The notes below the pieces were generated by a model. That model was not told where the DNA came from and made no database searches. It worked only from the letters and a program-made list of their open reading frames with translations. 64,000 nucleotides of DNA from Yersinia frederiksenii ATCC 33641 (lineage in GTDB: Bacteria > Pseudomonadota > Gammaproteobacteria > Enterobacterales > Enterobacteriaceae). The stretch is from assembly GCF_000754805.1 (NCBI RefSeq), contig NZ_KN150731.1:4265886-4329885 (forward strand), given 5' to 3'. A program made the translations under genes and the position numbers. Positions 22,057-43,038 of the stretch are shown one piece after another. Every line of letters begins with the position of its first letter. Positions within the stretch are counted from its first letter, which is position 1.

Positions 22057-22430
22057 GGCGGCCGGTGGTCCTATAGTGAAAAACAGCTACGCCTGTAGCA
22101 TCATCTGTTTCATATCATAAAGAGAGATCCGCATAGCATAGCCGATAAGCGGCAGCTGCAACAACACTCTGCGTCCTACGGAAGGTTATTTCTGCACAGT
22201 GAATGGCAGAAATAACTAAAGTGGGGGAAGAACAACCTGATGATGACGTGACTTCAGTCATTTACGACTAAAATAATTAACGTTAACTTTAATATCATAG
22301 TCAGTAGGATCAGAGTGAGTTCTTTCAGATAACAGGAACAAGGTAACAAAAACAGGCGAAAAATGAGTTTTATCCCTACTTTCTTTGTCACAACTTTTGC
22401 TTTATCACAACCGTGGATCGAGGAGATTGT
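22057..22430. promoter_or_regulatory. Divergent region of leuS and ybeL
   Basis: 374 bases without a gene. It contains a perfect 11-base inverted repeat, GTTATTTCTGC (22185-22195) and GCAGAAATAAC (22206-22216), with no T-run. It could be part of the leuS leader or an operator. No promoter can be fixed by eye. Confidence 0.4.
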
Positions 22431-26365: not shown

Positions 26366-27304
26366 TTAGTTCAATGCTTTATCATTAGGGGCTTTGAACA
26401 GCGCCTTCATTTCATCAGACAGTGAGAAATTCAGGTTAAGATTTTTAGGTGGAATTGGGTTTTTGAACCAACGATCAAAGGATTTTTCAGCAACACCACC
26501 GGTTTGTGCAGTAGCGATGGTTTCATCCACCAGATTTTTAAAGGCCGGATCGTTTTTACGCAACATACAGCCGTAAGCTTCCTGGGATTGCGGGGTGCCA
26601 ACGATATCCCACTGATCCGGTTTCTTCGCTTTTGCACGTTCGCCTGCAAGCAGAGCATCATCCATCATAAAGGCCACTGCACGGCCACTTTCCAAGGTAC
26701 GGAAAGAATCACCATGGTCTTTGGCGCTGATGATGCGCATGTTCATTTTGTCTTTTTCATTCAGCTTGTTCAGCAGTACTTCAGAGGTGGTCCCAGACGT
26801 TACCACCACAGCTTTACCGGCTAAATCTTTGAAATCTTTAACTTCTGAACCTTTTTTGGTCAGTAAGCGAGTACCGACAACAAAAATGGTATTGGAGAAC
26901 GCAGCTTGTTGCTGACGTTCCAGGTTGTTGGTAGTGGAACCGCATTCAAAATCGAAGGTACCGTTTTGCAGCAATGGGATACGGTTCTGTGAAGTGATGG
27001 GGATCAACTTGACCTGCAGGTCTGGTGCGTTAAGTTTTTTCTTGATCGCATCGACAATCAGGTTGGAATAATCTTGTGAATAACCCACGACTTTTTGCTG
27101 ATTATCATAATAAGAGAATGGAACAGAAGACTCACGATGGCCGACTACGATAACGCCGTTATCTTTAATCTTCTTCAGTGTGTCAACGGAAGCATCTGCC
27201 TTTGCTGCGGCTTGCTCTGGTTTTGCTGCTGCTTCTTCTGCTTGGGCTACACCACTTGTTATCCCAGCTAACAGTAGCGCTAACGCCAATTTACGCATAT
27301 GCAT
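26366..27304 (-). CDS. gltI: Glutamate/aspartate periplasmic binding protein GltI
   Basis: 312 residues. Signal peptide (1-22, ending AQA) followed by an Ala/Lys-rich insert, then the type II binding fold with GVIVVGHRESSVPFSYYDN, FECGSTTNNLERQ and AFMMDDALL, all as in E. coli GltI. It delivers glutamate and aspartate to GltJKL. GGAG is 8 bases before the ATG. The leader carries a GcvB-type C/A-rich site and a far-upstream NtrC-like site. Confidence 0.98.
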   Translation of the reverse strand: MHMRKLALALLLAGITSGVAQAEEAAAKPEQAAAKADASVDTLKKIKDNGVIVVGHRESSVPFSYYDNQQKVVGYSQDYSNLIVDAIKKKLNAPDLQVKLIPITSQNRIPLLQNGTFDFECGSTTNNLERQQQAAFSNTIFVVGTRLLTKKGSEVKDFKDLAGKAVVVTSGTTSEVLLNKLNEKDKMNMRIISAKDHGDSFRTLESGRAVAFMMDDALLAGERAKAKKPDQWDIVGTPQSQEAYGCMLRKNDPAFKNLVDETIATAQTGGVAEKSFDRWFKNPIPPKNLNLNFSLSDEMKALFKAPNDKALN

Positions 27305-27593: not shown

Positions 27594-27880
27594 GTGTTGT
27601 GCCCTAAAAATGTGCGGACGAATAACGGCGATTCCTTTACTTGAAACCCACCAGCACCTACCTACTGCGGTAATCCCTATCAATAGCCAGATAATGGCTG
27701 ATTGCTAACACTATTTGATTAGAAACAATGCAAGGTCTGTGCCAGTAACCGAAGAAAAAGTGAGTAATAACTCTGCGAGTTGAGGCGATAGGGTGTCGTT
27801 CTGGGGAGGGAGAAGGAAGAGTCAACCAGCAGATGATGACATTGCTGCTGGTTGATTTCACTGTTGCCAGTTTGAAGGGA

Positions 27881-36958: not shown

Positions 36959-38623
36959 TTATTTATAAGCATCCTGATGCACGCCAACAGCGCGGCCAGA
37001 TGGGTCATCCATGCTTTTGAATGATTCGTCCCACTCAATAGCTTTCGCTGATGAGCATGCGACCGACGGGCCACCAGGGACACACTCGGCGGCACTTGGC
37101 AGCGGGAACAGCTCTTCAAATATTTCGCGATACAAGTAACCTTCTTTGGAAGATGGCGTGTTGTATGGGAAACGGAAGTGAGCAGTTTCCATCTGTTGAT
37201 CAGTAACTTGCTCAGCGGCTTTTTCTTTTAATGTGTCAATCCAGCTGTAGCCCACACCATCAGAAAACTGCTCTTTCTGACGCCATGCCACACTGTGTGG
37301 CAGATAAGATTCGAAACATTCACGCAGTACATGTTTCTCCATCTTGCCATTGCCGCACATTTTATCTTGCGGGTTGATACGCATTGCGACATCAAGGAAG
37401 TTCTTATCCAGGAAAGGTACGCGAGCTTCAACACCCCATGCAGACATCGCTTTGTTGGCACGGGCACAGTCATACATATGCAGAGCTAGCAGCTTACGGA
37501 CCGTTTCTTCATGCAATTCTTTGGCGTTTGGTGCTTTGTGGAAATAGAGATAGCCACCGAATACTTCATCAGAACCTTCACCAGACAGCACCATTTTAAT
37601 ACCCATCGCCTTGATTTTACGTGACATCAGGTACATTGGTGTCGAGGCGCGGATGGTGGTGACATCATAGGTTTCAATGTGATAAATCACATCGCGGATA
37701 GCATCCAGACCCTCTTGCACCGTGAAATGAATTTCATGATGCACAGTGCCTAAATGGTTAGCGACTTCTTTCGCGGCGCGTAAGTCAGGAGAACCCACTA
37801 AACCAACGGCGAAAGAGTGCAGTTGTGGCCACCAAGCTTCACTGCGCTCATCATCTTCTACCCGGCGGGCCGCAAATTTTTTGGTGATAGCTGAAATAAC
37901 GGAAGAATCCAGACCACCGGACAGCAGCACGCCATAAGGGACGTCAGACATTAAATGGCTTTTTACTGCTTCTTCTAATGCGTTAGCCAACTCAACTTTG
38001 TCAGTAACATTGTCTTTTACATTGTCGAAATCAAACCAGTCGCGATGATAATATTCGCGAATTTCCCCGTCTTTGCTCCAAAGATAACTACCCGCCGGGA
38101 ATTCTTTAATGGTGCGGCACACTGGAACCAGGGCTTTCATTTCTGACGCCACAAACATATTGCCGTGTTCGTCGTGGCCCATATACAGCGGAATAATCCC
38201 CAGGTGGTCGCGACCGATCAGATAGGCGTCTTTCTCTGTATCGTATAAGACAAAGGCGAACATGCCTTGCAGATCGTCAAGGAATTCCGGCCCTTTTTCC
38301 TGATACAGCGCCAGAATGACTTCGCAGTCTGAGCCGGTTTGGAATTCGTAGCGATCGCCATATTGTTGACGTAAAGCCTGATGATTATAAATTTCACCGT
38401 TTACCGCCAGAATATGGGTATGAGCAGCATTATACAGCGGTTGAGCACCAGTATTGACGTCGACAATCGACAAGCGTTCATGGGCGAGAATAGCTTTATC
38501 ATTGGCCCACACTCCAGACCAATCCGGGCCACGGTGGCGCATTAAACGTGACATTTCCAGCGCTTTTTTGCGTAACTCAATGGGGTCGGTTTTAAGGTCG
38601 AGGACCCCGAAAATAGAACACAT
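36959..38623 (-). CDS. asnB: Asparagine synthase B (glutamine-hydrolysing)
   Basis: 554 residues, E. coli length. Catalytic Cys2 exposed after Met (MCSIFGVLD), the glutaminase domain (HRGPDWSGVW, VNGEIYNHQ), and the synthetase domain with the pyrophosphate loop LLSGGLDSSV. It converts aspartate to asparagine with glutamine as nitrogen donor. GGGAGA is just before the ATG. Two sigma-54-like promoters and a palindromic GGTGCAATGCACC element upstream suggest nitrogen control. Confidence 0.98.
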   Translation of the reverse strand: MCSIFGVLDLKTDPIELRKKALEMSRLMRHRGPDWSGVWANDKAILAHERLSIVDVNTGAQPLYNAAHTHILAVNGEIYNHQALRQQYGDRYEFQTGSDCEVILALYQEKGPEFLDDLQGMFAFVLYDTEKDAYLIGRDHLGIIPLYMGHDEHGNMFVASEMKALVPVCRTIKEFPAGSYLWSKDGEIREYYHRDWFDFDNVKDNVTDKVELANALEEAVKSHLMSDVPYGVLLSGGLDSSVISAITKKFAARRVEDDERSEAWWPQLHSFAVGLVGSPDLRAAKEVANHLGTVHHEIHFTVQEGLDAIRDVIYHIETYDVTTIRASTPMYLMSRKIKAMGIKMVLSGEGSDEVFGGYLYFHKAPNAKELHEETVRKLLALHMYDCARANKAMSAWGVEARVPFLDKNFLDVAMRINPQDKMCGNGKMEKHVLRECFESYLPHSVAWRQKEQFSDGVGYSWIDTLKEKAAEQVTDQQMETAHFRFPYNTPSSKEGYLYREIFEELFPLPSAAECVPGGPSVACSSAKAIEWDESFKSMDDPSGRAVGVHQDAYK

Positions 38624-38718: not shown

Positions 38719-38734
38719 TGCAAGTTATGCCCCA
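38719..38734 (-). promoter_or_regulatory. Sigma-54-like promoter 1 upstream of asnB
   Basis: Minus-strand TGGGGCATAACTTGCA: the -24 GG and -12 GC are at exact spacing (ten bases between), and TTGCA is perfect. The start would be about 85 bases before asnB. Confidence 0.45.
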
Positions 38735-38771
38735 TGACGATGCAGTCATCCGAATAATTTGTAGAAAGTGA

Positions 38772-38788
38772 TGCAAAAAACACGCCAA
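38772..38788 (-). promoter_or_regulatory. Sigma-54-like promoter 2 upstream of asnB
   Basis: Minus-strand TTGGCGTGTTTTTTGCAT fits the sigma-54 consensus YTGGCACGN4TTGCA except for two bases in the -24 part. GG and GC are at exact spacing. It would give a leader of about 140 bases. Confidence 0.55.
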
Positions 38789-38879
38789 TTTATAGCACCA
38801 TAGATTTGCAGCTATAGCAGGCGCGGTTCTTAGGGCATAAAAAGAAAATGCGCCAAAATAGGGAGGAATGGCAAGAAAC

Positions 38880-38898
38880 TTTGGTGCAATGCACCAAA
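38880..38898. promoter_or_regulatory. Palindrome with NtrC-like half-sites upstream of asnB
   Basis: TTTGGTGCAATGCACCAAA is a perfect 9-1-9 palindrome of GGTGC/GCACC half-sites, in the everted order relative to classical NtrC sites. It lies about 110-130 bases upstream of the start predicted from promoter 2, a normal enhancer distance. A similar degenerate copy (GCGCCAAAATAGGGA) is at 38850-38864. Confidence 0.45.
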
Positions 38899-38954
38899 AA
38901 AGGGAATGTAGCGAACAGGGAATAGTGGCGGCCATACATGACCGCCAACGTAAA

Positions 38955-42237: not shown

Positions 42238-43038
42238 TTACAGATTTTTGACGTTTTCAGCTTCTAATTCGCGGAAATATTTTACCGTTTTGACTTTCAG
42301 TTCCATGGTCGAAGGCTCATCACACACCATGATGGCTTTAGCATGCAGTTGCAGGCAACTGATGGTCCACATGTGGTTGATGCTACCTTCAACCGCAGCT
42401 TGTAAGGCTTGTGCTTTGCCATGGCCAGTAACCAGAATCATCACTTCTTCTGCATCCAGCAATGTACCCACACCTACTGTAAGTGCATATTTCGGCACGA
42501 GGTTTGCATCACCACCAAAGAAGCGGGAGTTAGCCATGCGGGTTTCTTGTGTCAGCGTTTTGATACGAGTACGAGAAGCTAAAGAGGATGCAGGTTCGTT
42601 AAAGGCGATGTGGCCATCAACACCCACGCCACCCATGAACAGGTGAATTCTACCGTAAGACTTAATTTTCTCTTCGTAGCGACGGCATTCTGCATCGATA
42701 TCAGGTGCATTACCATTCAGCAGGTTGATGTTTTCAGCAGGAATATCAACATGATCGAAGAAATTGGTGTGCATGAATGTGTAGTAACTTTCCGGGTGTT
42801 CTTGCGGCAAGCCGACGTACTCATCCATGTTGAAGGTGACAACATTCTTGAAGCTTACTTCGCCCGCTTTATGCATAGCGACTAAGTGTTTGTAGGCTTC
42901 CATCGGCGTGCCACCAGTCGGCAGGCCCAGTACAAACGGACGGTCAGCTGTTGGTTTAAATGCATTGATACGATTTACGATATGACGTGCTGCCCATTTG
43001 CCAACTTCTGTGGTGTTTTTCAGTGGGATAAGTCTCAT
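42238..43038 (-). CDS. nagB: Glucosamine-6-phosphate deaminase NagB
   Basis: 266 residues, E. coli length. [24 protein letters not shown] at the start, [10 protein letters not shown] (catalytic Asp), [17 protein letters not shown] (catalytic His). It gives fructose-6-P and ammonia. The frame continues 19 codons upstream, but ATG 43038 has AGAGGTG before it and is the family start. Confidence 0.98.

Follow-up and report, generated by a model that had tools for sequence, protein, structure and literature searches.

The region upstream of asnB in Yersinia frederiksenii ATCC 33641 raises the question of whether the gene for glutamine-dependent asparagine synthetase is transcribed from a sigma-54 promoter under the control of NtrC, the regulatory arrangement of glnA. 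A first-pass annotation, made from the letters of this DNA, proposed such control through two sigma-54-like promoters, a perfect palindrome of NtrC-type half-sites and a degenerate copy of the latter; the strings on which it was built (TTGGCGTGTTTTTTGCAT, TGGGGCATAACTTGCA, TTTGGTGCAATGCACCAAA and the GGCGC copy around 38850) were all found where it had placed them. Here, the window denotes the whole stretch of 64,000 nucleotides that was analysed. The gene order around asnB is that of E. coli K-12, namely, umpH (nagD), nagC, nagA and nagB, with asnB downstream. The asnB gene is represented by a single match per genome in 25 of 25 Yersinia genomes, and asnA was also found in all 25 genomes searched. 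The features on which the argument turns are the following.

36959..38623, minus strand: asnB, glutamine-dependent asparagine synthetase B, 554 aa; an open reading frame that scores 1024.9 bits against the NCBIfam asparagine synthase B model
38719..38734, minus strand: P2, ATGGGGCATAACTTGCAT, with the core TGGGGCATAACTTGCA in GG-N10-GC spacing; sigma-54 score 11.2, rank 15 in the window
38771..38788, minus strand: P1, TTGGCGTGTTTTTTGCAT, read as a sigma-54 promoter from its first rank by the matrix, its conservation and its match to the published peak IGS19
38844..38874, minus strand: older asnB promoter-like element TTGC-N17-GCATTTT (TTGCCATTCCTCCCTATTTTGGCGCATTTTC), overlapping the supposed degenerate copy at 38850
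38880..38898, no strand assigned: half-site palindrome TTTGGTGCAATGCACCAAA, RGTGC-N3-GCACC in everted order, conserved
38891..38905, minus strand: the palindrome in its best NtrC-like reading, TCCCTTTTTTGGTGC (in several species, GCCCTTTTTTAGTGC), centred at about -137 from the expected start

In P1, the -24 GG lies at 38786-38785 and the -12 GC at 38774-38773, giving GG-N10-GC within a TGGC...TTGCA context, and a start 12 bases past the GC would fall at 38761. The sigma-54 matrix was built on Table 1 of PMC7657599, which has 37 motif rows; 30 were used, and IGS19 and six weaker secondary motifs were omitted. With this matrix, P1 scores 20.1 (training range 9.5-21.4) and ranks first among the approximately 128,000 positions of the window. 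A consensus match alone would be insufficient for P1 because the two-mismatch consensus, of which P1 is one instance, has 22 matches in the window compared with 14.1 expected, a count that is reached in 2 of 100 shuffles. In the aligned asnB upstream regions of 25 Yersinia genomes, GG-N10-GC is kept at P1 without exception, as TTGGCGTGTTTTTTGCAT in 19, TTGGCGTATTTTTTGCAT in 4 and TTGGCGTATAAATTGCAT in 2.

Binding of RpoN to the identical sequence is already known from Y. pseudotuberculosis. The RpoN ChIP-seq study of strain YPIII (Mahmud et al. 2020) lists in its Table 1 the peak IGS19, on the plus strand before YPK_3001, with peak strengths of 8.9, 7.7 and 6.2 and a PSSM value of 11.21, and its motif is the same 18-mer as P1 (PMC7657599). 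The tabulated neighbours allow the two loci to be aligned. IGS20 (CTGGCACAAACCTTGCAT), before YPK_3010, lies 10.95 kb from IGS19, and CTGGCACAGACCTTGCAT in the window, which shares 17 of 18 bases with the IGS20 motif, lies 11.04 kb from P1. IrGAs14 (TAGGCACGAGATTTGCAT), inside YPK_2997 and on the opposite strand, is 3.68 kb from IGS19, and its counterpart in the window, TCGGCACGAGGTTTGCAT, is located inside nagB, on the strand opposite to P1 and 3.72 kb away. The relative strands of the three peaks agree with those of the three window sites, so that P1 and IGS19 share not only the 18 bases but also the same place relative to two neighbouring peaks. Because the spacing to both flanking peaks matches the window, YPK_3001 is, by this sequence comparison, very probably asnB, and the order of the locus tags from YPK_2997 to YPK_3001 would fit nagB-nagA-nagC-nagD-asnB. 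At both neighbouring sites, the window thus differs from YPIII; of the 25 Yersinia genomes, none has the exact IGS20 motif and 2 have that of IrGAs14.

According to the same study, 88% of the intergenic sense RpoN sites accompanied an expression change in the rpoN deletion mutant, activating as well as suppressing effects are described for intergenic sites, and the 'associated sigma factor' column is the product of a motif screen rather than of mapped starts (PMC7657599). The main text of that paper contains no mention of asnB, asparagine or NtrC, and YPK_3001 appears in it once, in the table. In the open-licence literature, supplements aside, we found no transcript start for asnB, no rpoN effect on YPK_3001, no NtrC binding to asnB and no induction of asnB by nitrogen limitation; nor did we find there that asnB had been named as the target, that the site had been traced across the genus, or that similar cases elsewhere or an association with Nac had been described.

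Taken together, sequence, conservation and the published RpoN binding in a sister species strongly support P1 as a real sigma-54 promoter, in agreement with the first-pass annotation, and we infer that transcription from it depends on RpoN. The annotation had also set this arrangement apart from E. coli, a contrast that holds as scanned: in E. coli strain E69, no position within 500 bases upstream of asnB scores above 2.6 for sigma-54, and the E. coli sigma-54 map does not mention asnB in its main text (PMC4591121).

The second proposed promoter, P2, has the GG-N10-GC spacing in the window but is poorly conserved: of the 25 Yersinia, 16 keep the spacing and 4 have lost it, and in the remaining 5 the region was not found. 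P2 was rejected as a second promoter on account of this poor conservation and probably is not one; the expected conservation of the -24/-12 elements across Yersinia applies to P1 and not to P2. The asnB leader around P2 (38680-38745, minus strand) contains the inverted repeats ATGAC...GTCAT and ACTTGC...GCAAGT, and the -12 half of P2 forms one arm. The RNA structure of the leader is weak, and an Rfam search yielded nothing beyond a cobalamin match below the threshold (E 0.2; 14.7 bits compared with the required 31.5).

The support for NtrC is indirect. The palindrome is present and everted, as the annotation had it, and it is conserved: the exact string occurs once in the genome, the remaining matches at up to 3 mismatches all having 3, and the surrounding block is found as TTTRGTGCNNNGCACCAAA in 23 of 25 Yersinia and as CCCYNTTTTRGCGCA in all 25. 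Its perfect symmetry is not general, with all 8 pairs intact in 8 of 25 species and one pair replaced by A-C in 16. The palindrome was therefore rejected as an RNA hairpin on the strength of this A-C mismatch. NtrC-type half-sites, and only half-sites, are present within about 80-160 bp upstream of the expected P1 start, and CCCYTTTTTRGTGC of the left NtrC-like site is found in 23 of 25 Yersinia.

How closely these half-sites approach a genuine NtrC site was gauged with a matrix of 13 distinct Yersinia glnA and glnK sites (GCACY-N5-RGTGC), where the glnA sample comprised 24 of 25 loci (L191, below the family cut-off, was dropped) and the glnK sample 14 of the 16 genomes searched. The left site of asnB scores 5.8-11.7 depending on the species, compared with about 23 for glnA, which itself trained the matrix. 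Within nagD, the window contains a hit of 7.0, which exceeds the asnB left site (6.5), and about 28 positions per 64 kb score 6 or more. The canonical site GCACY-N5-RGTGC precedes asnB in 0 of 25 Yersinia, compared with 23 of 24 for glnA and 13 of 14 for glnK, and the near-canonical GCACY-N5-NGYGC is likewise found before asnB in 0 of 25. Given these modest scores and the lack of a canonical match in all 25 genomes, the asnB block is best described as a pair of NtrC-like half-sites, one good and one poor. Because the canonical site was sought and not found, P1 is not filed as an NtrC promoter, even though it would behave as one on the reading favoured below, and control of asnB by NtrC is likely, to judge from the sequence, rather than established. 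Thus, of the proposal that asnB is driven by sigma-54 and NtrC, the sigma-54 part stands at P1 and the NtrC half-sites are in place, but the canonical NtrC site is missing.

Across the whole genome, the plain NtrC consensus has 186 hits at up to 2 mismatches, compared with 69 for the reversed control. An NtrC-like pair 39-42 apart was set aside as evidence as it is not rare enough alone, the window containing 2 such pairs including that of asnB.

The distance from the end of the block (GCGCATTTTC) to P1 ranges from 54 to 180 nt across Yersinia. That the block and P1 are conserved while the spacing varies is in keeping with a block that works from a distance. In the species denoted L015, the extra spacer sequence contains a motif with 74 hits in that genome and 49 in the genome of the window, and thus harbours a dispersed repeat, presumably ERIC-like. 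Such a variable spacer, lengthened by a repeat in at least one species, is a ready-made test of whether the block works from afar.

The degenerate NtrC copy claimed at 38850 is better explained by the older promoter-like element. In the family, 165 genomes, 3 of them Yersinia, had an asnB match; from the remaining 162 we examined the asnB upstream regions of 97, for the most part with a single genome representing each genus. A second set consisted of named loci, 69 of 80 usable (11 lacked a recognised start codon), some of which overlap the 97 genomes. TTGC-N16/17-GCATTTT precedes asnB in 24 of 25 Yersinia, in 55 of the 97 other family genomes and in 33 of the 69 named loci, and its carriers include E. 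coli, Klebsiella, Serratia and Rahnella. Outside Yersinia, the element is often followed by CWTAA. From this distribution it is read as the putative ancestral promoter of asnB; no sigma-70 consensus match was found at the element in the window. Conservation around 38850 is no proof of NtrC because the right part of the sequence there occurs in non-Yersinia genomes that lack sigma-54 sites, and the conservation of the second half-site is thus confounded by the older promoter element. The 38850 element and the left half of the palindrome can be read as a direct repeat of CCCYNTTTTRGYGC, a string that occurs 3 times in the genome and twice in this region, but the 38850 element was rejected as an NtrC copy.

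Outside Yersinia, sigma-54 and NtrC sites were scored in the 300 bases before asnB. The sigma-54 threshold is passed in 7 of the 97 genomes, 6 of which have an intact -12 GC: Budvicia aquatica (L059, G202), an Enterobacteriaceae MAG (L060, G156), strain B14 (L055, G168), and the genomes G083, G027 and G166. The seventh, G099, scores above the threshold but lacks the -12 GC and is terminator-like; it was counted as a miss, among the 91 others. All six resemble Yersinia asnB in combining a sigma-54 site with an NtrC-type site upstream, which starts 78 to 128 nt before the start of the -24 element. The NtrC scores of the six are 11.6-23.6, and 1 of the 90 genomes below the sigma-54 threshold reaches 11.5 (Fisher 4.9e-8 for co-occurrence among the 97 genomes with G099 as a miss, uncorrected for ancestry). 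Unlike Yersinia asnB, these six have canonical (G156, G083, G027) or near-canonical (G166, G202, G168) NtrC sites and lack the older TTGC-N-GCATTTT element altogether. The near-canonical pattern GCACY-N5-NGYGC is matched in 6 of 6 sigma-54 genomes vs 1 of 91 others (G165).

Among the 69 named loci, a sigma-54 score at or above the threshold occurs within the 300 bases in Budvicia aquatica, the MAG and B14 only; Serratia, Rahnella, Ewingella and Rouxiella, as sampled, all remain below it. Counterexamples to the pairing are L088 and L106, where an NtrC-like site stands alone in these 300 bases, no sigma-54 site accompanying it; that of L106 (Rouxiella silvae), GCACTTTTTTAGCGC, scores 11.7 at 274 bases before asnB and might be due to chance or represent a relic. 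In at least 5 of the 6 sigma-54 genomes, asnB apparently follows nagC directly, an order also seen in sigma-54-negative genomes. It was rejected as a mark of the sigma-54 group, a rough signature of the nagC end being present in 29 of the 97 stretches.

In a tree of 60 AsnB sequences, which included 7 of the 25 Yersinia and did not extend to G083, G027 and G166, the sigma-54 label requires three changes, one for Yersinia, one for Budvicia together with the MAG, and one for B14. A single origin followed by losses might also account for this pattern, and the six non-Yersinia sigma-54 genomes may represent two lineages only.

Elsewhere, Nac connects NtrC to sigma-70 genes. Using E. coli Nac as the query against 246 family genomes (E 1e-60, with up to 9 candidates scored per genome, so that a divergent Nac could escape), a hit was obtained in 106 of the 246 and in 0 of the 3 Yersinia of that draw; a published search found no NAC in any Yersinia (PMC4658026). 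A Nac hit is present in 0 of the 6 sigma-54 asnB genomes vs 66 of the 91 others (p 7.5e-4, uncorrected for ancestry). The absence of Nac is at most permissive because 25 Nac-negative genomes have no sigma-54 site before asnB. A broader scenario, which we offer as a conjecture that is rather doubtful in its entirety, is that Nac-less enterobacterial lineages wired asnB directly to NtrC and sigma-54 more than once. In Yersinia, this would have occurred through a sigma-54 promoter below the old promoter, with the adjoining sequence turned into a diverged NtrC enhancer that maybe silences the old promoter, so that a glnA-like switch was rebuilt at a second gene.

In E. coli, glnA has a dual promoter and is activated by NtrC and sigma-54. 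The asnB region resembles glnA of Yersinia and E. coli in possessing a -24/-12 promoter with a half-site cluster approximately 100-140 bp upstream, and in carrying a putative older promoter at the upstream sites, one without a sigma-70 consensus match in the window. Because the older element, which lies just below the palindrome, has been kept, the layout would resemble that of glnA, with a general promoter upstream, next to the NtrC-type sites, and the sigma-54 promoter further down. It differs in that the canonical site is nearly universal in Yersinia glnA and missing from asnB, where the half-sites are asymmetric and everted.

The reading we favour, with moderate confidence, is that P1 is a genuine sigma-54 promoter of asnB, activated by NtrC from about 130 bp upstream under nitrogen limitation, with the older promoter retained. 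The sigma-54 RNA polymerase would occupy the -24/-12 element of P1; when nitrogen is limiting, NtrC in its phosphorylated form would bind the cluster of half-sites at 38880-38905, some 130 bp upstream, and contact the polymerase by looping. A start at about 38761 would give asnB a leader of about 138 nt. The role of NtrC as the activator, induction by nitrogen limitation and any effect on the older promoter are inferences. When ammonia is scarce, more glutamine-dependent asparagine synthetase would be made, and the ammonia-dependent AsnA would serve nitrogen-rich growth; such a division between AsnA for rich conditions and NtrC-driven AsnB for nitrogen limitation would make sense. Against this division, and against the NtrC model, counts the observation that in Y. 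pestis evolved in the laboratory in nitrogen-rich medium, GlnA went up and AsnB went down (0.37 and 0.49, single-peptide values for AsnB; PMC4658026).

The same Y. pestis observation would suit a different account, in which RpoN-bound P1 is silent or inhibitory and the older TTGC-N17-GCATTTT element drives asnB. This account gains from the retention of that element in 24 of the 25 Yersinia and from the suppressing, as well as activating, intergenic RpoN sites described in YPIII (PMC7657599); the -24/-12 element, however, is strictly conserved in all 25 Yersinia genomes, and sigma-54 and NtrC-type sites are paired upstream of asnB outside Yersinia as well, both of which argue against it, and we regard it as the least probable of the alternatives weighed here. 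Somewhat less improbable, although still unlikely, is that P1 is a sigma-54 promoter and that another enhancer-binding protein reads the everted RGTGC-N3-GCACC palindrome. The half-site order indeed differs from that in the Yersinia glnA and glnK sites, no asnB region of the 25 Yersinia contains a canonical site, and the exact palindrome is unique in the genome with modest NtrC scores. Yet the freedom at R of RGTGC recurs in the glnA and glnK sites, a canonical or near-canonical NtrC site accompanies the intact sigma-54 site before asnB in each of the six non-Yersinia genomes, and asnB is a nitrogen gene.

The palindrome might also be unrelated to sigma-54, acting either as a terminator of the nag operon or as an operator of the older promoter, for which we see about the same small chance as for a different activator. 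A pattern scan does return a terminator-like call for it, and only about 5 bases separate its end from the TTGC with which the older element begins. As an RNA stem, however, it would contain the A-C mismatch in 16 of 25 species, and in L031 the palindrome is located about 435 bases past the nagD stop and yet stays with the asnB promoter.

Activation of P1 by NtrC, as favoured here, would make a testable circuit, leading from nitrogen limitation to asparagine synthesis via sigma-54, out of a ChIP-seq table entry that had drawn no comment. It also hints at a way in which such genes could be wired directly in bacteria without Nac.

Three sigma-54-type sites are found within 15 kb around asnB, namely, P1, the nagB-internal site and a site upstream of a gltI-like ORF. 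The last of these, CTGGCACAGACCTTGCAT (27728-27745, minus strand), ranks second for sigma-54 in the window with a score of 18.0 and lies upstream of ORF 26366-27304, which resembles gltI. The third-ranked score, 16.2, belongs to TTGTCACAACTTTTGCTT (22385-22402, plus strand). The sigma-54-like site TCGGCACGAGGTTTGCAT (42492-42509, plus strand) is antisense within nagB, at the position that matches peak IrGAs14 (PMC7657599). It corresponds in place to the nagB-internal site of E. coli, which by mutation is a promoter of nagE and is tied to low nitrogen (PMC4591121). A GC-rich inverted repeat, GGCGGTCATGTATGGCCGCC (about 38925-38950 of the window, minus strand), is located just past the nagD stop and could mark the end of the nag operon or an attenuator.
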